NCBI GenBank assembly: GCA_022496805.1
Contig: CM040103.1
Span: 12,294,001 to 12,358,000 of the forward strand
Reading direction: 5' to 3'
DNA length: 64,000 nucleotides
From: Pohlia nutans
Taxonomy: Eukaryota; Streptophyta; Bryopsida; Bryales; Mniaceae
Shown: positions 1 to 28,679 of the stretch, piece by piece
Layout: every line of letters starts with the position of its first letter
Position numbering within the stretch: the stretch's first letter is position 1
Notes under the pieces: model-generated
Seen by the model: the letters and a program-made list of their open reading frames with translations, nothing else
Database searches by the model: none
What the model was told of the DNA's origin: nothing
Translations under genes and position numbers: made by a program

Positions 1-3000
1 CATTTATGACTAGCGTCTCTTCTTGTAGTGATGACGGGGACGAGTATGCAATGATGGCAAGTCACGTGTCATGCAATGGTAGTGTGATCGATTGGATTGT
101 TGATTCGGGAGCCTCGAGTCACATGGCGCCCATTAGGAGTTGTTTCCAATCATATCACGTCATATCTCCAAAGAATGTCATTTTGGGTGATGATACGGTT
201 CTTCAAGCAGTGGGTAAAGGATCCATCGTCGTAGACACCGAGGTGAAGGGTCGTGTGAAGACAATTACCATCCATGATGTCCTCCACGTTCCCAAGTTGA
301 AGGCAAATCTTTTATCGGTGCGACATTTGGTGATGAAGCATTTGCGAGTGGAATTTAGCGACCAAGGGTGTTTTGTGTTGTCCCCAAGTCGTGAGGAGGT
401 GGCCATTACACACGAAGTCAACGGCTTGTACCAAATCAAGTTTTCCAAGATGCACGCGGCGGAATCGGCAACGTTGGTGCAATCGAGTTCAAACGAAGAC
501 AAGTTGGCGTTGTGGCATCGTCGTCTCGGGCATTTGAATGTCAAGAGTGTGAAAGCACTGCGTGGAATGGTAAGTGGCATGGATCTTGCACAATCACACG
601 TCGCGCCTAGTTCATTCACATGTGAGGGTTGTATTGAAGGCAAGCAACAACGCTCACCGTTTCCAGTTGATGGGGCAACTCGTGCAACCAAGGTTCTTGA
701 GATTGTGCATTCCGACGTGTGTGGTCCAATGAAGACCACGTCTATGGGGGGTTGCAAGTATTTTGTGACGTTCATTGATGATTTTTCGAGGAAGATATGG
801 TTGTATCCGATCAAAGCAAAGAGCGAGTGTTTTGAGAAGTTCAAAGAGTTCAAGGCGTTGGTTGAGAAGCAATCCGAGCACAAGATCAAGGTGTTTCGAT
901 CGGATAATGGCGGCGAGTTCTTGTCCAACCAATTTGGAGAGTTATTGAAGAAAGAAGGCATTGCTAGACAAACCACAACGCCATATACACCACAACAAAA
1001 CAGAGTTGCAGAGCGTACAAATCGAACAATTGTGGAAATGGCAAGGAGTATGTTGCATGCACAAAATTTGGGTTTGGACCTTTGGGCGGAAGCGGTGGTG
1101 ACTGCGGTGTACACACGCAACCGATGCCCGACGAGTGCGGTTCAAAACATGACACCAGAGCAAGCGTGGAGTGGGAGGCCACCCCGCGTGGAGCACATGC
1201 GCACATTTGGATGCATCGCATTTGCAAAGGTACCCGATTCTCAAAGAACCAAACTTGAGGCCAAGGCAACAAAATGTGTGTTTCTTGGATATTGTGAAGG
1301 TACCAAGGCGTACAGGCTCATGTCGCTCGAGACCAAGAAGATCATTCGAGCTCGTGATGTGACATTTTGCGAGAATTCCAAGGTTGAAGACAATTTGGAC
1401 GATGGTCCAAGTGGGAGAAGTGGCGATAAACCAGCGATTGTGGACCAATCTTCCAAATCTCCAGTTATTGATATTGTTGATGAAGACGAAGATGACGAAG
1501 ATGGTGGTGATGAGGAACATATTGAGGAGCGACCTTTGAAGACGAAGAATGGCGAGAAAAAGGCACAAGCAACGGCGGTTGAAGACAATGCATCCTCGAG
1601 CGATCGTCGTTATCCAGAGAGAAATCGTAGACCACTTGGCGAGTGGTGGAAGAATCATATTCTCCCTCAAGGTGAGGAGGAGCATGCAAACGTTGCACTT
1701 TTAGATGCTCCATTGACGATTCGTGAAGCGTTGAGTTGTGATGATGCAAACAAGTGGGAGCAAGCCATGCAAGAGGAGTACAAATCGTTGATGGACAATG
1801 GCACTTGGGAATTGACTCCCCTCCCCAAGAATCGCAACGCTATCGGTTGTAAGTGGGTATTTCGTGCAAAGAGAGATGCAACGGGTGATGTGGTTCGTTA
1901 TAAGGCAAGATTGGTGGCAAAGGGCTTTTCACAAATCGAAGGTGTTGATTTTCATGAGACCTTTGCACCGTGGCGAAATTCACCACTATTCGATGCATTT
2001 TGGCCATCGGGGCTGCCATGGATTTGGAAATGCATCAAATGGATGTGAAGACGGCGTTCTTGAATGGCGAGTTGGAGGAGGACATCTACATGGTACAACC
2101 CGAAGGATTTGTGCAACGAGGTAATGAGAACCTTGTTTGCAAGTTGAACAAGTCATTGTATGGGTTGAAGCAATCTCCACGCGCATGGTATTAAAAGATT
2201 GACACGTTTCTTGTTCATATCGGGTTCACAAGGAGCATCGCTGATCACAGCTTGTATTTCATGCAAAAGGGGCAACATGTGGTCATCGTGATCATATATG
2301 TGGATGATTTGATCATCCTTGCAAGTTGTATGAGCTCTTTGAAGGCATTGAAGGCAATGCTTGAGAACGAGTACGAGATGAGTGATTTGGGTGAGTTGCA
2401 CTTTTGTTTAGGAGTTGAGTTTGTGCGAGATAGAGCAACACGCACCATAACAATGAATCAAAGCAAGTATGTTATGGATGTGCTCAAACGCTTTGGCATG
2501 GAGGATTGCAAACCGGTTGGCACTCCATTGGATGGGAATTCCAAACTCGTGAAACTCACCGATGAGGAGTATGCATTAGAGGCTCAATCTATGGTGGATG
2601 TGCCATACAAGCAAGCTGTAGGGTCATTGATGTATGCTATGATTGCAACAAGGCCGAACCTTGCGTATCCAATCAGCGTTGTGAGTCAACACATGGCAAG
2701 ACCGGGTTCAAGTCATTGGGTTGCGGTCAAGAGGATCATGCGGTACTTGAAAGGCACAAGTGATGTGAGGTTGTGTCTTGGAGGTGACAACATTGTGTTG
2801 AGTGGGTATTGTGATGCGGATTATGCGGGTGATACCAATGATCGTAGATCGACCACGGGGTACATGTTCAAAGTTGGATCGGGGGCCGTTTCATGGAATA
2901 GCAAGCGCCAACAAACCACGGCCACGTCAACGGTTGAGGCGGAGTACATGGCGACGAGCCACGGTACGAAGGAGGCCATTTGGTTGAGGCAACTAATGGC

Positions 3001-3298
3001 GGATGTGAGATGCACTCAAGAGGAGGCTACAACAATCATGTGTGACAACCAAGGGAGTATGTCATTGGCGAAGAATCCAACGCATCACTCACGTACAAAG
3101 CACATTGATGTGCAATATCACTTCATTCGAGAGAAGTTAGAGATGAAGGTGATAGAGTTGAAGTATTGTCCAACGGAGCACATGGTGGCGGACGTGCTGA
3201 CAAAGGCTCTTGCGAGAGATCGACATCAAAGACTAGTGGTGGCATTTGGACTCGAAGGCATTGGCTATTCGCAAAGTGGGAGTGTTGAAGTAGGATGA
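1..3298 (+). pseudogene. Ty1/copia retrotransposon Pol polyprotein, 5' end cut by window, lightly broken
   Basis: Seen: an open frame enters from the window edge (an ATG at 6 need not be the start) and encodes, in order, aspartic protease (motif WIVDSGASSH), the zinc GAG-pre-integrase segment (LWHRRLGHLN ... CEGC), integrase with HSDVCGP, SDNGGEF and the downstream Glu in a TPQQN-RVAERTNR context, then RT and RNase H. RT carries the catalytic YVDDL; RNase H carries CDADYAGD, EAEY, CDN and the KHIDVQYHFIR tail. Breaks: a one-base loss near 1968, in the RT FAP region, shifts frame 0 to frame 2, and a TAA stop at 2192-2194 follows RAWY. The remaining 1.1 kb to the TGA at 3296 is intact. Domain order PR-INT-RT-RH defines copia rather than gypsy. 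gag and the 5' LTR would lie left of the window. Only two lesions in 3.3 kb suggest a fairly young copy. Confidence 0.95.
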
Positions 3299-3600
3299 TT
3301 GCGTGGGCTGAAGTTGCTCATAGCCATGCGCATTAGCTAGAGTAGATGATGCGAATGAGCTAGACTTGCAACTAGAGAAGTGGTACTAGTTAGAAGTAAT
3401 GAGAATTGGGTCTCCCAAGTGATATGGGCTGATCCTAGTGTACTAGGAGTGGAGTATGGGCTGATGTCCCATATGGTTTGCCAAGGGGACTCCCTTGGGT
3501 GTGCTGCTTAAGAGGGGCAGCCCATGAGTAAAGATCATCTCTTTCCTATGCATTCGAAGTGTTTGTGTGAGGCTTTGGCATTCTAATCTAACCTTCAATA
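3283..3600 (+). repeat. Probable 3' LTR of the copia element
   Basis: A purine-rich run GCAAAGTGGGAG (3271-3282) is followed by TGTTGAAG. This is the usual copia arrangement of polypurine tract then LTR start, here overlapping the last codons of Pol. A matching inverted end, TTCAATA, occurs at 3594-3600 and fits TGTTGAA with one mismatch, giving an LTR of about 318 bp. The 5' LTR is outside the window, so the right boundary is inferred only from the short inverted end. Confidence 0.5.
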
Positions 3601-3730
3601 GTTGTTTCACCTTCATTTAGTGTCTGCATTTTTGGGTTGAATTCCAAATGAAGTTTAGTTTTTGTAGTAAAAATCTTGCTTCAATCCAAGGTGTCTTGAA
3701 GAATTGGCAAGCGTTTTAGTACAAGGAGGT

Positions 3731-3831
3731 ACCAATGTCTCTTTGTCCGGTGGGCACCGGGTCATTGTCATTACGAACGGACACTTTATTCACGCCGACC
3801 TTGCAATAGAGTCGGTGTTTCTATCTATCTT
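3731..3831 (+). mobile_element. 101-bp 5'-truncated LINE tail with 9-bp target duplication
   Basis: The segment matches the last 100 bp of the large LINE at 6594-19384: it shares the blocks ACGAACGGACACTTTATTCAC and GGTGTTTCTATCTATC and ends in a TCTA repeat. It is flanked by the direct repeat CAAGGAGGT at 3722-3730 and 3832-3840. This is the signature of target-primed reverse transcription with extreme 5' truncation. Confidence 0.85.
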
Positions 3832-6582: not shown

Positions 6583-6593
6583 TAGGAATGCAT
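6583..6593. repeat. Left target-site duplication of the large LINE
   Basis: TAGGAATGCAT at 6583-6593 is repeated exactly at 19385-19395, directly after the terminal TCTA repeat of the LINE. The first two bases could belong to the tail, so the duplication is 9-11 bp. Confidence 0.75.
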
Positions 6594-8237
6594 TGACGAC
6601 CAGCTGGAAAGACACGGTAAGAGCTGGGAGAGAGAGCGATAGAATGCTGCTAGTGTGTTGCAGGGTGGATGGTTGCATGTGAAATGAAGCTGTAAGACTG
6701 CGATTGTGAGCAATGAGGGTGGATCTGAGCTCCCTTTGTTGTGGTTGTTTGCAAACCGATTACACAAGCTGATGTTGGTGAGTAGATCCAGATCTGATAC
6801 TGCGTGTGCATATTGACTTAGATCTGACCGGTTAGAAGCGAGCTGTGGAAGCATACTAGTGTATGCTGTATTGTGTTGGACTCCGCCCTTGCATCGTTGA
6901 AAGGGCTGAGGCACACTCACAGTTTCAGATCTAGGCTTTACATATCTCATCTTTTTGTTAACCGATTTGCATTTAACCCCAGTAGTACGCACTTATCCTT
7001 AGTTCCTGCACCTTCGCTCTTCATTGACTCAGGCAACATTTCTGACCCCTCGTCAATCCACCAGATTAGTTCGCAGTTTACTCAACACCCACTCAGATCT
7101 CCTCTTTCGTTCATTTACCCAGTAGCATTCAAGGTAGCGCTAGCATCTTCGTACCCCTCATCGTAGCAGCAAACAGGAGTACAGATCCGCCTCGATATTG
7201 GCAGCACAAGACCAGAGAGAGTGCCAATATCTCAAGAGCAGCAGCAGCCGAAGATCAATTTGGCAGCGGTCAGTAAGTTCCCTGGTGATCTAGATAAGCA
7301 CAGCCCAAGGCGCTTTGAAGTCCAGGAGCGCACTTTCAAGAGCAGATCCAGCAGTTTCAAGACCAGATCCTGCGCAAATTCAAGCAGAGGAGAATCGGCA
7401 GCGCGGGTGTAGTTGAGTCTACAAATCCGCACTGAAGCCTCATTTCCAACACAACACCAAGCTGTGTACGAGCACCTGCATTCGATCCAATCTGTAGGAG
7501 TAGATCGACACCAAACGCCTAACTCGACGTCGAGTAAAACCAGCCAGCCTGCAGAGATTCATTCTGTTCAAGGCCGCATCGATCCAGTAGCGAGGCAACC
7601 CTCGCCCCTAACCATCAGATCAAACAACCTGAAGCAGCGTCACCTTCGACATCCAAGTAAGTTTCCTCATCCAAATCACTTGCATTATTTTTGCCAAACC
7701 TCGATTACTTTCAATTCCAACAGCGTTTCTTGTTCCGCTAGCCTAGAAACTCACATTACTTCTAATGTGTATCTGGATAGCCAGAAGTCCTCTGTGTCCC
7801 ACCATAGAGCAGATTCAATCGATCTAGAGACCTGCCGTGACCTCCCTAACAGCAACAGATTCTCAAACACCAAACGGCAAAACCAGCGTCGTACCTACCA
7901 AAGCTACAACAATGCCTGGACAACCTGGAGCAGACTCAGCAACAAACCATATGCTTGATGCATTAGCAAAAGCCTAGCCCCACCTACAAAAAACACAAAG
8001 CAACACCAAGGCCACCGCACAGGTAAGATTCCTCACCTTAACCCATTGCTTTGCCCCCTTTTCAGTGATTTTCTGCTTAGCATTGCTCCTTCCCACGCCC
8101 ACTTCAACCACAATTTCAGTATTGTCGACAACAGCCAACAGAGCCCCAAAGGTAAACTCTACCATAATCCCATTTATTTCTACTCTACTGCTTGCACCTC
8201 TATTGTTTTTCATTGCACATTGCTCACAGTGAACGCT
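6594..8237 (+). other. LINE 5' leader with intron-like segments
   Basis: The 1.64 kb before ORF1 is richer in GC than its surroundings and has small open frames (for example 7413-7958) with no recognisable domain, so I treat it as untranslated. It contains consensus-like splice pairs: GTAAGT at 7657 to CAG at 7723 (67 nt), GTAAGA at 8023 to CAG at 8119 (97 nt; a CAG at 8065 would give a rather short 43 nt), and GTAAAC at 8152 to CACAG at 8229 (78 nt), the last ending eight bases before the ORF1 ATG. The first two donors share GTAAG-TTCCTCA, suggesting a duplicated module. Confidence 0.55.
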
Positions 8238-10925
8238 ATGGAAACGCGGCTGTCAGCGTGGTTTAGCTCCACGGACGATAGACAAACCACATTCATGGAC
8301 GTGGACTCCCCGTCCGCCAATTTGAAGAGGCTGCTTGCTGAGAAAGCAGCCAGAGACGCCAAAAAAAAGAGCAAAAACAACACCGAAAATGCCGAGCAGA
8401 CCATTGCCAACGAGGAGGATACAATCATGACCACCAACGACAATGAAGGAGACAGTGAAAAGAACCCGCTTACCCAAAGCGAAGAAGCATGTAGAAGGGA
8501 ACACAGTCGAAAGGAGTTCTCGGGAGGAGCTGCGCATGGGCAAACATCCAACGCTAACGGCAGAGAACGCGCCCCAAGCAACTCCAGCGACAAAACGAAG
8601 CCCGACGACCAACTCAAGAGCGGCCCCAACATCGACCGCGATGGCAGCGCTAACAAGCAAAAGACGCCAAACAATGAAGAACGGGGAAGGAGCGCTAACA
8701 AACAAACCACGGGGAAAAGAAGAGACCGTAGCAAAAGCTCGAGCCGAAGGGAGTCGACCAACATCGACTGCCGAGACCAAAACGCCAACATTTCGGGAGA
8801 AGGCACCAACGTCGACAAAGGTAAGAACGGCTGCAGGCAAGATATAAGCAATACCGGCGACCACACCCAGACCGCGAGCAATCCAGGCTCATCAAAAGAC
8901 ACCACCACAGGCGGGAGCAGCGTAGGAGTCACCCGCGAAGCCAACAACACCCGCACCAGCAGCCAACGGAATAGAGCACCGGCCGTCGCAGCGACAACAA
9001 CCGGAGAGGCCAATCGGCGACAAGGCAAACCCAACAGCGAAGGAAACAAGAAGGCGGCGACCAAAAAGCAAGGGCAGAGGAGCGCAACGAAGGAAACAAA
9101 AGATGACAGAGAAGGCAACGACAGCGACGACGACAGCGAAAAAGGAGAAAGCGACGACGGCAACGAATACGAAGAAGGCAGCGAGAGCGAGCTTGGGAGC
9201 GGCGCAACGACGGGAGACAAGGAGCAGACAATGATGAACGAGCAACAGCAAGAAGGATCGATGACAGCAGAACAACGACACAGCAGCAAGGACAACGACA
9301 GTAAGGGGTCCCCAACAGAGGTAAACCCATCTAACATGAAGAACAAGAACGTGGTGCTCGAGCCACGAAACCCAAATTTTTGGCTTGGGTTTAGCCGTAT
9401 GGAAAGGCTAAGTAAAGAGAATAACGAGGACATAATTTTTATGGATGAGACCCTAGAAGACATGGTCACTAGGGGCATGATGAGGGAAGAAGCCATAGAA
9501 GCTCGTGAGGCAATCGTGGCAAACCCACGAGTCCCACAAATCCTCTACCCTAAAAAAAGGGAAGATGGAATTGTGGGGCAACATTTTAACGTCACTCAAT
9601 TGCCATTTAACATCCCGGTTAACCCCAATACCGGTCTAGCTCTTGACTTTCACATTCAAATTCATTTTGAAATGAATTTAGAAACCCCAATTCTTCATGA
9701 TGAAGCCAAGACCATGATTACTAATAGGCTTCATGACATGAACATTCCTCTTCGCCATGGGATCATAGATCCCATGGCGGTGCTTTGTTATAGCATCAAG
9801 AGAGGGGGGCAAAGGGGGGTTTGGAGTGGAGTTGTCAAACTCCACCTCCAAAACCCTGAAATTGTCGGCTTTAAGTTGCTTCAAGGGCTCCGCCTTTTTG
9901 TCCTCTATTATGACACTATTGAAGGATACTCTAACCATTCTTGCACAAAAAAAAATTTGAACAAGGTTTGTAAGAGTTTTCATAACATCGCTGGAAATGA
10001 TAGTCTAACGGTTAAAATTAAAAGTGATAACCTCTTAGACACCATCGCTAGCTTCCTCTTCCACGACATCTTGAGGAATAGCTTCCTCAAGAAACATGAC
10101 TTTGAAGTCATGGATGTCCAAAAGAAAACGCATGAATGTCATGTGTTCATTCTTGCACCCACACCTAACCTAGTCGATAAGATTAGATTGCATCATGTGG
10201 CCGCTAATCACGAGGTGATTATGCCACAAAAAAAGGTGTTTAACACACCACGTATCTCTCCCGAGGCCAAGGCTAAGAAAGATGCATTGTCCCTCATACT
10301 TTCTTACCTTCCCATTTTGATGTTGGTGGTCGACACCACCGAGGCGATCATCAAAACCATGGAGAGCAAAAATGTTGCCTCCGTGTGGTTTCATAGGGAA
10401 GTGGGTACTTTGCACAACAGTAGTGCAAACGTACAATGCACGAACCCTATCGTTTATAGGTCTTTTGTGAACAAAACCTTTGTGATTGGTGGTCACTATG
10501 TTTTGTTTGCACCGCATCGTAGGAGTCTTGATGGCATTGAACCCCCTACCAAAGAGTATGTGGAGAAGTGGGGTTTCAATGATATTAATGCGGCATTGGT
10601 AAATACCGTTACCACATTGGTAACGGCAACCCCTTCTTCCACCAAAGAAGATGTGAAGAAAATTTTGAAGGAAGACATGAAAACAATATTAGAAGACAAC
10701 AACAAGACCATGAGGGAGGAGAACAAGAAAATGAGGATGGATTTGGAGGTGTCTATGGAGAAGAAGATGAATGAAGAAAGGATCATCAACGACGCCAAGC
10801 ACGATGAATTACAAGCGAAGATTGATGCCGTTCACAAGAACATCATGCTAGCAATCCAACGACTTGGAGACATCAAGGGTAGTGCTTCTCGCCCCACCAT
10901 AGAGTATTCAAAAAATGTAGATTGA
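8238..10925 (+). CDS. LINE ORF1 (895 aa), intact, gag-like role presumed
   Basis: I chose the ATG at 8238 (METRLSAW); the frame is open further upstream only without an ATG. Residues 1 to about 370 are low-complexity and highly charged (Asn, Glu, Lys, Ser and Arg runs, with an acidic stretch DDDSEKGESDDGNEYEEGSE near the middle). Residues about 375-790 form a compact-looking, ordered region starting at VVLEPRNPNFWLGF that I cannot assign to a family. Residues about 800-880 form a heptad-rich Lys/Glu coiled coil (KKILKEDMKTILEDNNK). No CCHC knuckle or RRM is visible. Known: LINE ORF1 proteins usually bind the element RNA and multimerise through coiled coils, so that role is inferred. The frame has no stop over 2.7 kb while ORF2 is wrecked. 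Confidence 0.75.
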   Translation: METRLSAWFSSTDDRQTTFMDVDSPSANLKRLLAEKAARDAKKKSKNNTENAEQTIANEEDTIMTTNDNEGDSEKNPLTQSEEACRREHSRKEFSGGAAHGQTSNANGRERAPSNSSDKTKPDDQLKSGPNIDRDGSANKQKTPNNEERGRSANKQTTGKRRDRSKSSSRRESTNIDCRDQNANISGEGTNVDKGKNGCRQDISNTGDHTQTASNPGSSKDTTTGGSSVGVTREANNTRTSSQRNRAPAVAATTTGEANRRQGKPNSEGNKKAATKKQGQRSATKETKDDREGNDSDDDSEKGESDDGNEYEEGSESELGSGATTGDKEQTMMNEQQQEGSMTAEQRHSSKDNDSKGSPTEVNPSNMKNKNVVLEPRNPNFWLGFSRMERLSKENNEDIIFMDETLEDMVTRGMMREEAIEAREAIVANPRVPQILYPKKREDGIVGQHFNVTQLPFNIPVNPNTGLALDFHIQIHFEMNLETPILHDEAKTMITNRLHDMNIPLRHGIIDPMAVLCYSIKRGGQRGVWSGVVKLHLQNPEIVGFKLLQGLRLFVLYYDTIEGYSNHSCTKKNLNKVCKSFHNIAGNDSLTVKIKSDNLLDTIASFLFHDILRNSFLKKHDFEVMDVQKKTHECHVFILAPTPNLVDKIRLHHVAANHEVIMPQKKVFNTPRISPEAKAKKDALSLILSYLPILMLVVDTTEAIIKTMESKNVASVWFHREVGTLHNSSANVQCTNPIVYRSFVNKTFVIGGHYVLFAPHRRSLDGIEPPTKEYVEKWGFNDINAALVNTVTTLVTATPSSTKEDVKKILKEDMKTILEDNNKTMREENKKMRMDLEVSMEKKMNEERIINDAKHDELQAKIDAVHKNIMLAIQRLGDIKGSASRPTIEYSKNVD

Positions 10926-11056
10926 AAAAAGTCCAAAGAGTAGAATACATAGTATTTTTTATACTTTATAGTATTATTTCCTACTTCCTATTTTATACTA
11001 TATACTATTCAATATTTATACAGTACTTCTACGGCATACTATTTAGTAATATATAG
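10926..11056 (+). other. AT-rich spacer between ORF1 and ORF2
   Basis: Contains TATA/ATAC-rich sequence with stops in all frames. The ORF2 frame becomes open after a TAG at 11054-11056. No internal promoter motif can be argued above the AT-rich background. Confidence 0.5.
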
Positions 11057-11176
11057 TATAGAAATACAAAATACATATACATACCTTTTTGGTATACATA
11101 TACTGTAATACTATACACCATATATAAAAAGGTATATACTAATACCAAAAAATACATATACATTTATACAATACTT

Positions 11177-11540
11177 TTGTGTACAAATACCAATACAAAT
11201 ACCTATACAAATATCAACACAAATACCAACACAAACACCAATACAAATACCCATACAAATACCAATACCAATACAAATACCAAATCCAAAATCAATACCA
11301 AAAACAATAACAAATCAAACAACCAAGACAAAATAAATAAAAACAATCAACATACAAAATACATAACACATAAAACAAAAAGAAGAAATATAAAATCCAA
11401 CAAAAATAAATCCAAACAAAATAAATGGACTCGGCCTAACGGCCTCGTCCAAAAAAAACACCATCAACAACAATGGACTCGGCCTACCGGCCTCGTCCAA
11501 AATAGACAAAGAAAAAGGAAAAAAGAAAAAATAGCCCAAA
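11177..11540 (+). repeat. Low-complexity N-terminus of ORF2 with a 25-bp duplication
   Basis: An ACAAATACC-type microsatellite encodes an alternating Asn-Thr tract of about 30 residues, followed by a Lys/Asn-rich basic stretch. A 25-bp block beginning TGGACTCGGCCTA occurs at 11426-11450 and 11474-11498, giving the repeated peptide WTRPNGLVQ / WTRPTGLVQ. Confidence 0.7.
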
Positions 11541-11572
11541 AAACCCCCCTAAAGAGAAACTTTTTACACCAA

Positions 11573-11614
11573 TTATTGATACTATGTAGGGACATCGAAT
11601 CCAACCCCGGGCCC
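11573..11614 (+). other. 2A-like ribosome-skipping motif in ORF2
   Basis: Reads LLILCRDIESNPGP, followed by M. This matches the 2A core D-[VI]-E-x-N-P-G-P and the preceding leucine-rich helix. Known: 2A sequences make the ribosome skip the Gly-Pro bond, and they occur near the N-termini of some non-LTR retrotransposon ORFs (trypanosome L1Tc, sea urchin CR1-like elements). The Gly usual before the Asp is Arg here (AGG, one G-to-A change from GGG), which may have weakened activity in this copy. Confidence 0.8.
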
Positions 11615-12250
11615 ATGCCCAACTTACTAAAAACTCATCCATCTACACATAAATGAAGATCCAAAACATACTTTATACCAAGCACGATTAAACTACAAAC
11701 AGAATACCAGCATTTAGCAAAGCAATTTGCACCTATCCTAAATATAATCCATCCAAAACATGCGGAAGCCAGTAACGACTATCCACACATATCAAGTTAT
11801 ATCCACCAAAATCAACATCATCCATCACCAAGAATTCTATACGCACTTATAGTTACAATAAGTCCATCAAAAGAAACATGTGATCAACTTTTAATACAAA
11901 TTCCCAACCCCGATTGGACAACATTACTGCTAGAAAGAATATCCTTACTCCAAAACCCACCAGAAAGACACATATTAACTACACATCCATATACAGAATT
12001 TACAAACAATAATCAAAATATAATAAACCCACCAAATACAATTCATAAAGAAATCTATGCTTTTATTCATCAACATAATGGTCCAATAATCCTTCAAACC
12101 ATGATCGATGAATTCCCATTCCTCCCCATCAATTTGTTAGAAGAAACATTAAAAATATATGAACCACTACAAGAATACACTCACCCCCCACCACTCCCAG
12201 ACATACCTATAGTACAACCACAAGAAATTCGTACAACAAACCATAATACG

Positions 12251-13020
12251 AGATTTATTACATGGAATGCCTCTTCACTAAACACGGCCCTTCCAAACCC
12301 ACAGGAATTAATCAACACACCAGATGCACCCGCTATCATCACAATACAAGAAACTAAAATAACTGCTACAAAATCTACCAAATACATACAAAATTTATTT
12401 CCAAAATACAAATTGATTTTTAACAACACACACGCCCTAACAAGATGCATGCAACAACGAATGCCATACCTACCCGCAAGAGGAGGTCTCCTCACACTAA
12501 TACACCAAAAATACGCGTATCCCGGCAACATCACAAAAATCCCAACTCCCAAGGAAATATCACCTTATTTACAAATAATAAAACTAGACAATAATCCACT
12601 ACAAACTTGGCTAATTATTCACATGTATATACCGTCGCATGTAGAAGATACACAATATATACCAGTGATCCAACAAAACATAACACAACAAATCAATGCA
12701 CATCCAAATACCACATACATACTGTGTGGAGATTTTAATAGAGACATAGCACTTATTGGACGTAAAAATAATACTGACACAACCCCACCACAAATGGAAG
12801 ATATAGAATGGAGAACTTTTACAAATAACCTCCAATTAGAATATATTCCAACAAACTGCCCATATTCCAGACAAGGGGGTCAAAACTATAATCAAACCAG
12901 CCTAATAGACAGATACTATATTAAAACACTAGATAATACTTTATACACATCAACCACAAACAACGACCACAACCTTAACTCTGACCACTCACCAGTATCA
13001 CTACACATACCACGAACGCC
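12251..13020 (+). other. APE-type (exonuclease-endonuclease-phosphatase) endonuclease domain of ORF2
   Basis: Motifs in order: TWNASSLN (Asn of motif I), IQETK (metal-binding Glu), GDFNRD (catalytic Asp/Asn), SLIDRYYI and NSDHSPV (catalytic Asp-His pair). All key residues are present. Known role: it nicks target DNA to prime reverse transcription. It ends at a one-base frameshift near 13020. Confidence 0.85.
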
Positions 13021-15253
13021 TTATTAGCAAGACCCATTCCAATAACAAATAAAAGAACAAGAATTCTAAACCCCATACCACAAGAAAATATGGAAAAATT
13101 AAAAATAGAATATTTTGAAGAAAATGCTCTACAAATAAATGAACTCGTCACAATACTATCAAATGATCAACTAACGGACGTCCAATGGGAAACATCATGT
13201 TCAAAACTAGATCACTTGATACAAAAAATATCAGACAAAATTCAAGAAACATGCAGTGCACCACCACTCCCCACACTAACAAATCGCACCTCTCAACAAG
13301 GAGGCTTCTTACCAAGAAAACTACAAAAATCATGGAAAAAACACCTATCCACCTACCATCTAATTAGAAAAACAATTTACATAACAAAAAATACACAAAA
13401 CTGGCAAACACATCCAATAATTGAAAAATTAAATACCCATACAAATGTAAACATCCCACCACTCCCAACCCAAGAACATGACCAAATAGAATGGATCCAA
13501 TCATTAGTAGAAATAGCCAAAACGGCAGAAACGCAAGCTCGTAAAATCACCACAAAATACACCCAAAGTTGTATAAAAAAGTCAATTCAAAAATACAGAC
13601 AACTATACGACAAAAGTCCAAAGAAAATAAACAAGAAAGTCTTCAAAAATCAAGAAACACCACCACTAGATTGCATTATGGACAGAAACAACAACATTCT
13701 GACCAACCCAGAAGACATAGCAAATGATATCCACATACAACAATCAATTAGCAATAGACCTACAGTACCAACATGTTACTACCAACCCGAACATGCAGTA
13801 CATTGTACTTGCGAAGTTAGACAATACCTATGGCACGACCTCGATGGTTTTGTAATAGAAAAAAGAGGACATCTACAAACACCACTCCATAAACACTTTG
13901 ATAAGGAAACATATGAAATGTGTCTTAAAAACCTATCCAACAACAAAACACCAGGTCCAGACAAAATTCCCAACTCAATACTAAAAAGCATGCCCGAAAA
14001 CTTCCAAAAACTACTCTTTTTATTTTTCACTCATTGCTACAAACAAAAACAAATCCTAGCCTCATGGAAAATTAGTTTAACCATACTACTTTATAAAAAA
14101 GGAAATCCAACACAACTGCCAAACCACAGACCAATAGCACTTGCAAACACAATATACGAACTCTTCACCAATACGCTAACATACATACTATCAGCATACG
14201 GTGAAAAATACCAAATCCTACACGATAATCAAGAAGGATTCACAGCAGAAAGAAGTACAACAAGACAATTACAACTCCTCATAGCAGCACTAGAAGATGC
14301 AAAATTTACAAACCAAGACATATATCTACTTTATATAGATTTCAAAAACGCATTCGGCTCACTAGACCATCCAAGACTCCTAACTATAATGAAAGACCTT
14401 GGATACCCAGAAGATGCAATTATGCTAGTTGGCAACATCTACTCCCATTCAAACACCATTTTTACCGGTGAACACTTTGGCAAAACAAAACCAATACCGA
14501 TTCAAAGAGGAACCATACAAGGAGATACACTTAGCCCATATTTTTTCATAATTTTTCTACAACCACTCTTGAGATGGCTACAAAGAGGGGAAAATGGCTA
14601 CAAATTTGGTACATCAAAAATACAAATTATCTCTGCAGCATACGCGGACGATTTAGCAACTATATCAAACTATACAAAATCTCTACAAATACAACTAAAC
14701 AAAATCAACAAATTCTGTGAATGGGCGGGCATGGACTTGGGAGTCACAAAATGCTCGGGGGGAGCACTCCCTTGTATATTTTGCATACACGTGCGATAAT
14801 GACCTATTTATTTGGGGGGTTATTTACCTTGCAAAAAATATTATAAGGTGATGGTATTTTACATGTAAAAAGCGTGAGAATATTATATGTGATGGTATTT
14901 TACATGTAAACATGTTTCACTTTTTAAAAATCCCCTATTTTACATGTACACTTTTTACAAAATTTATCTACAATGAATATATTGGACCCTATTTTTTATC
15001 ACACGTTGTTTCTAAAAATTTCGCCAGTGAACCCCCTGAGACAAAATGCGCCGTTACCAGTTGCCCAAATAAATCCAAAATGCCACCAAACAAATTTAAA
15101 ACCCACATCACAAACCAAAAAATCAATTACAGAAACCAAACATTACCAGTACTCCATCAAAATGAACGGTATGTATACTTAGGCATACAATTAGTTCCAT
15201 CACTAAAATGGAAACTCCAAACACATATCACCACAACTAAAATAATAAACCAA
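13021..15253 (+). other. Reverse transcriptase domain of ORF2, interrupted by a MITE
   Basis: After a basic/helical linker, the RT blocks are clear: NNKTPGPDKIPN, NHRPIALANTIYE, QEGFTAERST, LYIDFKNAFGSLDH (first catalytic Asp), QRGTIQGDTLSPY and AAYADDLA (14635-14658, catalytic Asp pair). The thumb starts at GVTKC and is split by the insertion 14754-15040. It resumes at 15041 and includes YVYLGIQL, the block conserved after the YADD core in LINEs. A TGA at 15254 follows. The region 15257-16200 continues the same frame with two more stops. Confidence 0.9.
14754..15040. mobile_element. 287-bp MITE inserted in the LINE RT domain
   Basis: Ends CTCGGGGGGAGCAC and (inverted) CTCAGGGGGTTCAC are 11/14 identical. 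The flanks ACAAAATG at 14746-14753 and 15041-15048 form an 8-bp duplication (9 bp if the next C is counted), and removal rejoins the RT reading at the same codon. The interior is AT-rich, with GTGATGGTATTTTACATGTA present twice. An 8-9-bp duplication suggests hAT or Mutator-type mobilisation; the end sequence does not decide which. Confidence 0.85.
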
Positions 15254-16796
15254 TGAAAACAATTATCAAAATGCCCTACCACCATCAAACAAAGAATCAG
15301 TATGGTGGACACGGTAATCAGAGCAGGCATAGCCTAGAGCTTCTTCGCAATCCCATACTCACTACCAACCATTAAAAAACTTGATAAGAAAATTATTGCA
15401 ATCCAAAAAACAATATGCGGACTACCTAAAAGCACCGCAAACATAGTAACTCAACTTCCTCATGATTTATTTGGACTTGAAGCCTTCTCTCTAAAAAATG
15501 CCTACCTTAGATGCATTGGGGAACAACTTCGTAATGCACTTAACGACAAAGGAAGACTAGGAATAATATATAAAGGACTTGTACAACACATACTTGTCAA
15601 AGCCGGAGGTGCCGATTCCATCCCAAGAATTAAACGTCAAGACTGCATTACATCACCTACAACATGAATATTATTCCTTCTGAAAATAGAAGTTGGTATA
15701 CACCTTAAAAGCACAGAAGAGAATTTTCAACTCGACATGACTGAACTAGAACGAGAATGGCGAACTGCAGTCATAAATGACCTACCACAATTAGACCCAA
15801 AACTCTCCATCAAATTATTATATAAATTAATGGCACACAAAATTTACAATATTAATCAAATCATCCTCCCCAACGACACAAAACTAATGTCACCAGAAGA
15901 ATTTAAAATATACTATCAAAATCCAACTAAACTAGACAAAAGTGCACTAAACATAGCAGAACAACTCTTCTGTGAACCAAAATGTACCCTAGATTGCCTA
16001 AATCCATGTCAAATACACTTACCACCCCGTACGCTAAAAGAAAAATACAAAATATATAACCACATAATAATACCTAGAACACCAATAAATCCTGTACAAA
16101 TCCCTCAACCTCCACTACAACCAGCCCCACCACAAAACATAAAAAAACGATCCTATAAGATTCCCCATTCATACAATATTAAACCACAAAACAATTACAA
16201 CAAAAGATAAATATAAAATACCAAAAAAATACAACACCTATCTATGTCAATGGATAGACTCAAACCACATAACATACAATAAATGGTTACAACAACGCGA
16301 ACTATTCCCACTAAATCTACCAACAGTTATAGACCATCACATAAACCTCCTTACAAAATACTATACAGAACTTAAAAACAAACACTACCAAAATATTATA
16401 AATACACAATTCACACCCGAACAAAATAGAGACACAAGACACATCCCACCCCCAACAATAATCCCATACATTAAAACATCCACAATTGAATGCAACCCAG
16501 AAAGAGACATATACACAAACAAGTGCACCATTCAAACACAAAATGATAAAACCCACATATATAATGACACCGGTAAATATATCACCACCATTCCAACTAC
16601 AAAAATAAAATGGTTATGGCAACAATATAACAATAACAAATACAACATCCACAGACTAATACCAGCTATACAATCATTTAAAACGGAATTAGTCTGGTTA
16701 TATCAAAGATACGAACACAAAAACCACAAAAAGAATACAATAAAAACACCACACCATACCATTCCATCCAACATTCTAGACACATTAATAACAACA

Positions 16797-17165
16797 TTTA
16801 ATATAACACACTCATATTTTTCCTCACCAATTACATGTTCCATGAAATCTACCCAATTCTTCTCAACATTCACTAGAGACAGGATTTTTGGCTCACTAGG
16901 AACAGCCTTTCAATACAAATGGAAAGGTATTGGATATGCTCACCCAAATGACGCCGAAACAACACAACAAGCAATACATTGGGCTAGACTAGCAGCAAAA
17001 TAAGACCCAGAAACTGTCACCATTTTAGCAATCCCGGACACCAACTGGTATCAAAACCTATCACAGTACAACGGACCCTTCCCGGATACGCACGCCATTA
17101 TACATTTTGCCGCAGACACCATCACATATGACGAACCAACAATTCCATTAGTACCCAGCAAAACC
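16797..17165 (+). other. Methyltransferase-like region of ORF2 (PCIF1-like N6-adenine MTase fold?)
   Basis: Frame 0 encodes SYFSSPITCSM, FTRDRIFGSLGTAF, KGIGYAHPND, a helix AIHWARLAAK, a stop at 17001, then a strand TVTILAIPDTNWY and HAIIHFAADTI. Inference: the order FGS-x-G, then [N/x]-x-P-[F/x] loop, helix, hydrophobic strand ending P-[DE]-x-x-W mirrors the PCIF1-type adenine methyltransferase core, where the loop would be NPPF; here it is AHPND. The same segment exists in the minus-strand copy near 60540-60720, so it belongs to the family. The similarity is judged by eye and may be only structural analogy. Confidence 0.35.
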
Positions 17166-17441
17166 CGAAACGAACCACTTGCAATACACATATGGTGCAT
17201 TCACCATCAAAACAATAACATTGGCACAATAAACCAAATATACACCATAAACACAGCAATTGAAAATCTACAAATTTCGCAATACCATACACAAACAGCA
17301 CCACCAACACCATTAGACACAAAAGTTAACAAAAGCACAAAATGGAACAAACTAATATACCCACATTACAACAATTTACAAAACATGTGGGTAGATCCCC
17401 TTCCAAATTTCGAAATAGACACTACACTAAAACTTCCACCA

Positions 17442-17880
17442 CAATATAGCTATTACACAAATGGATCCTTTTTACCACCTGAAGAAGCTGATGATGGCCA
17501 TTGGAAAAAAGAAAAAGCTGGATATGGAATCTACAACTCATCTAAACCAGATGTACAAATATCAAAAAGACTGCCTGGACTACAAACATGCTTTAGAGCA
17601 GAACTTATGGCCATACATCAAACACTCTCAATAATCACCTCTAAATACATAAATGAACCTGCACACATTTTTACTGATTGTCTCAATTGTATACATGTTC
17701 TAAACACACAACTAAAACACCCAACCGAACAAAACAACCACGCCGATAAAATCATATTAGAAGATATGGTAAAAATGCTAAAAAAACGAACACAACCAAC
17801 CACAATATACAAAGTTAAAGCACACGCTAAAATTACCGGGAATGAACACGCAGATCAACTCGCAATAGAAGGAACCATGA
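17442..17880 (+). other. RNase H domain of ORF2, first catalytic Asp replaced
   Basis: The RNase H fold is shown by YYTNGSF, KAGYGIYN, FRAELMAIHQTL (catalytic Glu), IFTDCLNCI (catalytic Asp) and VKAHAKITGNEHADQLA (His and final Asp). The first block is normally T-D-G-S; here codon 17460-17462 is AAT (Asn), a single G-to-A change that should abolish metal binding in this copy. Confidence 0.85.
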
Positions 17881-18245
17881 AAAGAGGCTATCAAAAAGTA
17901 GCAAGTTCATATGAATTTGCACATACCACACCGTACTACTTCCAAAAAGACACATGGCTCGGTTGTATCAAACGACCAGACAAAGGACCAGTTAGATGTT
18001 TGGAAGAATACATAAAGAAACATGACCGAGAAACTAACCTCGAAATACTGGCAGAAGACTTTTCCAACATTAGCAAATGGACAACAAACTCCATCATAGA
18101 CAACGAAATGTCCAATGACTTTTGGAAAAATCCAGAAATAACAGACGCACAAAAAACAAGCATACTAAAATTTAGAACCGGTCAATACATGGGTAATGCT
18201 AGAAAACAATTAATTTTCGGCATACAAAGATTCCCCTCAAAAACA

Positions 18246-18345
18246 TGTCCCATCTGTAATTCACAAGATGCAGATACATGGCTACATGTACTTTTACTAT
18301 GCAAACAACACCATATACACGCACTAAGAACCAAAAGACACAATA
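18246..18345 (+). other. CCHC-type zinc knuckle of ORF2
   Basis: CPICNSQDADTWLHVLLLC fits C-x2-C-x8-10-H-x4-C, followed by basic RTKRHNKAVW. Known: R2-type and Dualen elements carry such a knuckle immediately before the restriction-like endonuclease. Confidence 0.75.
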
Positions 18346-18394
18346 AAGCGGTATGGGAATTAAGAAAATTAATACTATCCTGAAATAAATCAAG

Positions 18395-18853
18395 ATGCTA
18401 CACTCTCATGAATGCGGGCACATTCAACAATAATCCACAAGAAAACACAGTTCCTCCATGGTTATTACCATATACTTGTAATCAACAAAGATGTCAATGT
18501 ATGCCAGATTCAAACCAGATATATTATGCATTAAAGGCCTCCCATATCAAAGCCCACCGCCTCTAAACCCCGATGATAACCTAACCATACAATTTATAGA
18601 ATTCACATACACAAACGACAGATTTTCACCAGAAACAATTGGCAGATTTAAAAAAAAATACCAACCTCTAATTAACAATATTATACAACAAGGTTGGAAA
18701 GTAGATCCCATCATAGTCATTACAGCTAGAGCTAGAGGAACCACACACATCCCCTCAATGAAACAACTTGAAACAAAATTCAACATCTGTGAAACCTCCA
18801 TAAAACATATTCAAAGCAATAAATACCATCGCCGGATCTATCCTTTTACATAA
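18395..18853 (+). other. Restriction-like endonuclease-type C-terminal domain of ORF2
   Basis: After a frameshift near 18490 the frame reads FKPDILCIKGLP, then IQFIEFTYTNDRF, then a KKKYQPLINNI helix, GWKVDPIIVITARARG and a C-terminal helix. Inference: this is a PD-(D/E)xK layout, with P-D-I-L as the Asp motif, I-E-F-T as the strand with the Glu, and the K-Y...G-W-x-V element seen in LINE restriction-like endonucleases. The canonical Lys is not certain. Cys-rich CNQQRCQC sits just before it. Confidence 0.55.
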
Positions 18854-19384
18854 AAGACGTATAGAAAATAATCAATCAATACCAACAGACGTAGTACATT
18901 AAATGAGGGGGGGGTAGTGGTGAAAACCACTGCTAGCCACTCTTTTCAAATAACTAGCTCAGCTTGTCTCAGGGGATAGGACGGGCCGGTTGGTTGGTAC
19001 AACTTTCATGCCATGACAACTCATTAGCAGCACCAAGTCATGTGTATCACACCACTGCTCAAGGAGCCCAACTCGTTTCGAACCCGGACCACATAATTGT
19101 GATACAACGCCCTCCACCAACCAACCAAGAACTCATGACTTGGCGATAAAACTTAACACTAAACTCACCTTTATACAAACTTACACCCAACCATCATTAC
19201 TTCACTTCTCTCCTTGTTACTGTTACCGTTACTTTATTTTGGTTACTATAGTGTCCATCCTCGAAAGGGAGAGTAGTATTGTTCCAATGTCCCTTTGTCC
19301 GTTGGGCATCAAGTCATTGACTTTACGAACGGACACTTTATTCACACTGGCCCATTTCATTGGGTTGGTGTTTCTATCTATCTA
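18854..19384 (+). other. LINE 3' untranslated region and TCTA-repeat tail
   Basis: About 530 bp following ORF2. It includes a local hairpin GTAGTGGTGAAAACCACTG (18915), a CCAACCAACC-rich part, and the conserved terminal block of about 97 bp (19288-19384) ending in TCTATCTATCTATC. The terminal block is shared with 3731-3831, 28586-28679, 30915 and 59692, so it is probably what the RT recognises. Confidence 0.75.
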
Positions 19385-19395
19385 TCTAGGAATGC
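19385..19395. repeat. Right target-site duplication of the large LINE
   Basis: TAGGAATGCAT, identical to 6583-6593. Confidence 0.75.
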
Positions 19396-19634
19396 ATCAA
19401 AATTGTTTCATTGGTTGTGGACATACGATGTGAGAGTTATGGATTTTTTTAGTGATTTTTTCATCAAGAATTGAATTAATCATGAATAAAATTATCTTTA
19501 AAATGCAAAAGAAAAAGCACAGGGAACACGGGAAGCACAAAGGGACATGTGGAACACGAAAATCATCTTAGCTAAGGGCACAAAGCCACAGTAGTAAGCA
19601 TGACATTCTTCAAAATCAATTGAATTTTAAATAC

Positions 19635-28585: not shown

Positions 28586-28679
28586 TTGTGGGCACCGGGT
28601 TATTGGCATTACGAACGGACACTTTATTCACGCCGGCCTTGAAATAGGGTTGGAGTTTCTATCTATCTATCTACCTATT
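28586..28679 (+). mobile_element. 94-bp LINE tail with target duplication
   Basis: Contains ACGAACGGACACTTTATTCACGC and ends TCTATCTATCTATCTACC. Flanks TAAAACTGTA (28576) and TAAAACTATA (28680) form a 10-bp duplication with one mismatch. Same family as 6594-19384. Confidence 0.75.

Follow-up and report, generated by a model that had tools for sequence, protein, structure and literature searches.

A Dualen/RandI-type LINE of Pohlia nutans with a PCIF1-like domain in ORF2 and a probable coupling of ORF2 to ORF1

The stretch of 64,000 nucleotides of Pohlia nutans DNA analysed here, in the following referred to as the window, harbours a long retroelement that had been described from its sequence as a LINE of the dual-endonuclease (Dualen/RandI) type. 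The locus raises the question of where this element belongs, what its ORF2 encodes and how this second reading frame could be translated. In our interpretation, to which we assign a probability of about 0.85, the window copy is a decayed member of a large family of LINEs from the Dualen/RandI clade, which carries the PCIF1-like domain of this clade and whose ORF2 is coupled to ORF1.

The element and its boundaries

The element is flanked by an 11-bp target site duplication (TSD), which is exact and does not extend further, at a chance expectation of 0.003 in 8.2 kb (Table 1). The sequence-only reading had regarded both ends as fixed by this duplication, which is correct with respect to the TSD itself, while the 5' end has no second marker and showed no match at the expected distance in eight of eight sampled copies. 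A search with the 3' untranslated region returned 4080 candidates in the genome, and the 40 that were scored, window included, all share at least 91% identity; neither a tRNA-like nor an Rfam structure was detected in this region. The proposed length of about 12.8 kb had rightly pointed to a large element but has to be lowered to about 12.5 kb, because the nested insert is not element sequence. This MITE-like insert is located inside the RT region of the window copy, whose ORF2, previously read as one frame, is spread over several frames and interrupted by the insert. From its family, its tail and its target duplication, we infer that the element would be mobilized by target-primed reverse transcription.

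Table 1. Features of the element, in positions of the window
Feature	Position	Strand	Basis or remark
Left TSD copy, 11 bp, TAGGAATGCAT	6583..6593	no strand	sequence
5' untranslated region	6594..8237	+	sequence; boundary from the TSD alone
ORF1, 895 aa, open in window copy	8238..10925	+	sequence; homologous to ORF1 of L039-L043, 24-80% identity
Heptamer A AAA AAT in ORF1 frame just before ORF1 stop, candidate -1 frameshift site	10910..10916	+	sequence
A/C-rich leader in -1 frame, no AUG in frame, one stop in window copy	10911..11590	+	sequence
2A-like ribosome-skipping core DIESNPGP, then ATG directly	11591..11614	+	sequence
APE-type endonuclease	12239..13003	+	Pfam Exo_endo_phos_2 1.5e-7 and family profile
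Reverse transcriptase (RT), first part, resumes at 15041	14056..14753	+	Pfam RVT_1 2e-23
Nested MITE-like insert, 287 bp, not element	14754..15040	no strand	8-9 bp duplication, ends CTCGGGGG/CCCCCTGAG
PCIF1/CAPAM-like methyltransferase domain, one in-frame stop	16551..17204	+	Pfam, sequence and predicted fold; HPND in place of NPPF
RNase H	17433..17876	+	Pfam RNase_H 7.5e-15
CCHC knuckle CPICNSQDADTWLHVLLLC, then RHN	18246..18302	+	sequence, CPIC..H....C
Restriction-like endonuclease (RLE), KPD...E...K, frameshifted in window copy	18303..18850	+	profile and fold
3' untranslated region	18905..19372	+	common to many genomic copies
(TCTA)n tail	19373..19386	+	length differs between genomic copies
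Right TSD copy	19387..19397	no strand	sequence

Relatives of the element, whose presence nearby had been noticed before, were found in the window at 3729-3830, 28589-28672, 31579-31142 and 61163-59723. In the last of these, taken as 61184-59723 on the reverse strand, a partly kept methyltransferase-like region joins the 3' UTR directly, and RNase H and RLE are absent. The window also contains a Copia-type RT fragment (RVT_2, 2e-21) at 2195-3298. Across ORF2 (12001-18000), the coding strand is A- and C-rich, with an AT skew of 0.22 to 0.37 and a GC skew of -0.26 to -0.42.

The junction between ORF1 and ORF2

ORF1 of the window copy, for which no Pfam family was found, is 24-36% identical to that of L039, L040 and L042, three of the five copies with long frames (L039-L043), and is thus far more diverged than ORF2. 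Its product would presumably coat the element RNA. Since the ORF1s of L039, L040 and L042 are homologous in the correct frame, a swap between unrelated ORF1s was ruled out; the identity of about 36% to L040 and L042, yet of 89% between the RTs of the window and L042, may reflect fast evolution or recombination of ORF1.

The transition to ORF2 was compared in 22 junctions of the window's subfamily, consisting of 20 fetched copies, the window and L041. The heptamer A AAA AAT occurs in the window, in L041 and in every fetched junction except L062 (19 of 20); three of these 19 have lost the ORF1 stop that follows it. A 2A motif was found in 14 of the 22 junctions, nine times in the -1 frame and five times in other frames, and 12 of these 14 junctions continue with ATG immediately after the motif. 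Four of the nine -1-frame leaders (L041, L055, L058 and L067) are open over 231-251 codons and contain no AUG in this frame, compared to 9-16 stops in the two remaining frames of these four; the other five have 1-3 stops, and composition-preserving shuffles average 16-19. A core of the form D(I/V)E(S/T)NPGP is found in the window and in L039-L043, with two motifs in L039 and three each, one degenerate, in L040 and L042, and in most copies, as in the window, a methionine comes immediately after the last putative 2A. The window, L039, L040, L041 and L042 have a leader that overlaps ORF1 at -1; L043, whose leader is broken, has no such overlap. Motifs of the 2A type also appear in eight of 120 listed relatives described below, among them the Haematococcus protein P0064; five of these eight keep the usual D, and three read G at this position.

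The coding character of the leader, the frame relation and the 2A motifs together suggest a -1-frame coupling of ORF2 synthesis to the ORF1 end, with the ORF2 product being released by predicted skipping at 2A. A -1 frameshift at A AAA AAT is the likeliest candidate mechanism for the window's subfamily, and we consider it to have nearly an even chance. A simple frameshift is opposed by a leader stop common to five of the 22 junctions, by L039, L040 and L042, where no fitting heptamer was found, by AUGs in the leaders of L039 and L042, and by the region behind the heptamer, where no stimulatory RNA structure was found (z 0.00), and coupling is therefore better supported than any single mechanism. 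It appears somewhat short of evenly probable that ORF2 instead begins without frameshifting, either through re-initiation after termination near the ORF1 end or from the AUG that immediately follows the last 2A. A start of this kind is favoured by L039, where the ORF1 stop overlaps an AUG of the ORF2 frame as ATGA (3313-3316 in the joined coordinates of L074 and L039), a possible stop-start coupling site, by L042, where a leader AUG follows soon after the ORF1 stop, by the methionine located about 20 residues upstream of the last 2A in L040 and L042, by the ATG that so frequently follows 2A and by the leader stop common to five junctions. It is opposed by the 231-251 leader codons that stay open without AUG in four copies of the subfamily, and by 2A itself, which functions only when the sequence upstream is translated in frame. 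The ATGA overlap thus lowers the odds of frameshifting and raises those of re-initiation, which L039 may use instead; in this copy the ORF2 frame lies at -1 relative to ORF1 and overlaps it, which rules out a one-frame fusion of the two. The 2A motifs and the -1-frame leader coupled to ORF1 suggest a testable route to ORF2 production.

The domain chain of ORF2 and its PCIF1-like domain

The sequence of intact copies shows ORF2 to be a single chain of 2A, APE, RT, PCIF1-like methyltransferase, RNase H, CCHC and RLE. It is open through the end of the RLE in L040 (2460 aa) and L042 (2428 aa), and a search of the genome with PF12237 gave 1183 candidates, of which all 150 that were scored lie above the cut-off, with open frames of up to 2829 aa. 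Pfam matches to the window's own frames and the cysteine-histidine pattern bear out the APE-type endonuclease ahead of RT and the RNase H and CCHC knuckle behind it, all of which had been recognized initially; that first list included neither the PCIF1-like domain nor the 2A motifs nor the -1-frame leader. Matches under the cut-off (Tax, Condensation, DUF1912, Sas6_CC, Flu_PB2_1st) were disregarded. The C-terminal segment, for which no Pfam match over the cut-off was found, had also been assigned as restriction-like endonuclease, and this assignment is supported by the match of its alignment (A2) to the RLE part of solved R2 proteins in a profile comparison (1.7e-6) and by a predicted model that weakly resembles PD-(D/E)xK nucleases and R2, both lists of fold matches being headed by the expected class.

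A search with the RT in 5.8 billion proteins gave 173 matches, 120 of them listed, and because this search was limited by length and shared words, counts among the 120 listed relatives are not natural frequencies. With profiles started from the family, RT was detected in all 120, APE in 87, the methyltransferase-like (MT) domain in 89, RNase H in 88 and RLE in 83. RT, MT, RNase H and RLE occur together in 76 of the listed relatives, invariably in the same order (76/76), and all five domains in 60, with APE first in each (60/60). Where at least 900 residues follow the RT, the MT domain is found in 84 of 86 listed relatives, P0081 and P0112 being without it, and the addition of two proteins from the own genome and eight found through the MT domain changes these numbers to 93/95, 85/85 for order and 67/67 for APE in first position. 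The MT domain is absent from 13 of 13 individually checked outgroup proteins, of which six are RLE-only and seven have RNase H, five of the latter together with APE, and reversed sequences gave no match to any of the five profiles. An MT profile from which the two own-genome rows were removed still matches the window domain (1.4e-42). The PCIF1-like domain is a conserved component of the clade's ORF2 rather than an accident of the window copy. Several relatives, among them P0066, P0014, P0032, P0041 and P0026, contain extra domains in precomputed Pfam annotations (C5 DNA methylase, ULP1, OTU, Josephin, PHD finger).

By sequence and predicted fold, the domain is homologous to the catalytic region of PCIF1/CAPAM, whose motif is NPPF (PMC8868631). 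Among 91 domains, 84 of which have all four motif letters in their row, NPEY is by far the commonest motif at this position (31/91), NPPF is found in none (0/91) and the proline is kept in 80. Copies of the own genome uniformly (35/35) read HP and two further letters that vary (HPND, HPHN or HPYN, for example), with HPND in the window. The median pairwise dN/dS of the domain is 0.16 (36 copies, 589 pairs), a figure biased downward by the origin of 35 of the 36 loci from the PF12237 match list. RNase H has a value of 0.15 and the RT thumb region one of 0.13, which indicates that selection maintains the domain. With the methyltransferase region of P0005 as query, no protein was matched at 1e-3, and the corresponding region of P0026 gave 13 matches including P0026 itself, all adjoined by RT or RNase H.

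Our tentative proposal for its role is that the domain binds the capped 5' end of its own RNA, with methylation of the cap-adjacent adenosine in NPEY lineages, to which this activity would likely be confined, and with HP-type domains serving mainly as cap or RNA binders. We regard it as doubtful that the entire Dualen/RandI clade would possess its own cap-adenosine methyltransferase marking the RNA cap in cis, which in the lineage of this genome became a cap-binding module; such marking would serve translation, stability or the retention of RNA and ORF2 together. It is improbable that the domain, captured once, has neither a binding nor an enzymatic role and persists as a dead relic or serves as a linker of purely structural value: the loss of NPPF in all 35 own-genome copies examined and the restriction of NPEY to 31 of 91 domains would favour this view, but the dN/dS similar to RNase H despite the biased loci, the retention in 84 of 86 listed relatives with room for the domain, and the prevalence of NPEY at the very place of PCIF1's NPPF speak against it. 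If Dualen ORF2 indeed includes a conserved domain related to the cap m6Am writer, a retroelement clade would have captured an enzyme of the epitranscriptome, which would offer a new angle on the cis recognition of LINE RNA and a source of novel cap-binding or methylating domains. The dual-endonuclease element itself is of an already known kind, and it is this third conserved enzyme-like domain, together with the arrangement of 2A and leader, that extends beyond what is described; the literature searched, an incomplete collection, yielded no description of LINEs with a PCIF1-like domain.

Clade placement and known systems

The assignment to Dualen/RandI-like LINEs, already made at the outset, agrees with a tree of 50 RTs (46 picked from 123 protein rows and four PDB references), which does not contain verified RandI sequences and places the window in a 34-row clade (99/97) with elements of the chlorophytes Haematococcus, Pleodorina and Cymbomonas. 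Its RT falls outside the R2 and Myb-type RTs, which form a separate clade (98/95), and apart from L1; support is weak at many inner forks, and L1 has a long branch. By profiles, Haematococcus P0064 has APE, MT and RLE, Cymbomonas P0104 has APE and MT, and the shorter proteins Pleodorina P0092 and Haematococcus P0109 have APE only. It is very unlikely that the element belongs to the RLE-only (R2/NeSL-type) or APE-only (L1-type) LINEs and acquired a second endonuclease by chance, given the five-domain chain with APE invariably first in half of the listed relatives and an RT clade distinct from R2 and L1. Head-to-tail RVT_1 arrays with a spacing of about 5964 bp and mostly 1188-aa frames were observed elsewhere (G000 C17:13365624-13400743 and contigs C81, C110 and C312); their reading as LINEs is not supported, the eight best PF00078 loci (L001-L008) not being matched by the LINE RT profile.

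Dualen elements carry a cysteine protease, for which no Pfam match was found in P0004/P0005; OTU, ULP1 or Josephin domains are present in some relatives. Dualen/RandI elements, in which dual endonucleases (PMC4640811, PMC3636483) and RNase H (PMC4640811) are described, share with the window element an APE upstream of RT, RNase H and RLE downstream of it, and a tail of non-A simple repeats, which is (TCTA)n here and (ATT)n or (CTATTT)n in algal RandI (PMC3747384). The PCIF1-like domain and 2A motifs of the window element are not mentioned for Dualen/RandI in the available parts of these three papers. Dualen has been used in the argument that APE endonucleases replaced RLEs (PMC4640811) and was found across relatives of Chlamydomonas by Craig et al. 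(PMC8226300). The LINEs listed in a review of land-plant elements are L1 and RTE, and the words RandI and Dualen do not appear in its accessible text (PMC9033089). As far as its available sections go, a 2026 study of StopGo/2A reports almost no such motifs in plant viruses (PMC12846837).

PCIF1/CAPAM, a cap-specific adenosine N6-methyltransferase, resembles the window domain in the sequence and predicted fold of its catalytic region, its NPPF aligning to NPEY, whereas the window domain resides inside a LINE ORF2, has an HP-type motif and is without a WW domain in the Pfam scan. In 2A-bearing APE-type LINEs, which belong to another clade, 2A is likewise located near the N-terminus of ORF2, and the window family differs in having up to three tandem motifs and a -1-frame overlap of the leader with ORF1. 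R2, a LINE of the RLE type, has the same C-terminal succession of CCHC, RHN and PD..E..K, but the six RLE-only outgroup proteins of this type contain, by these profiles, no APE, RNase H or PCIF1-like domain. Finally, DIRS1-like retrotransposons, which are tyrosine-recombinase elements, also combine a retroelement with a methyltransferase domain, which in their case is of the Dam type and in the window element PCIF1-like.
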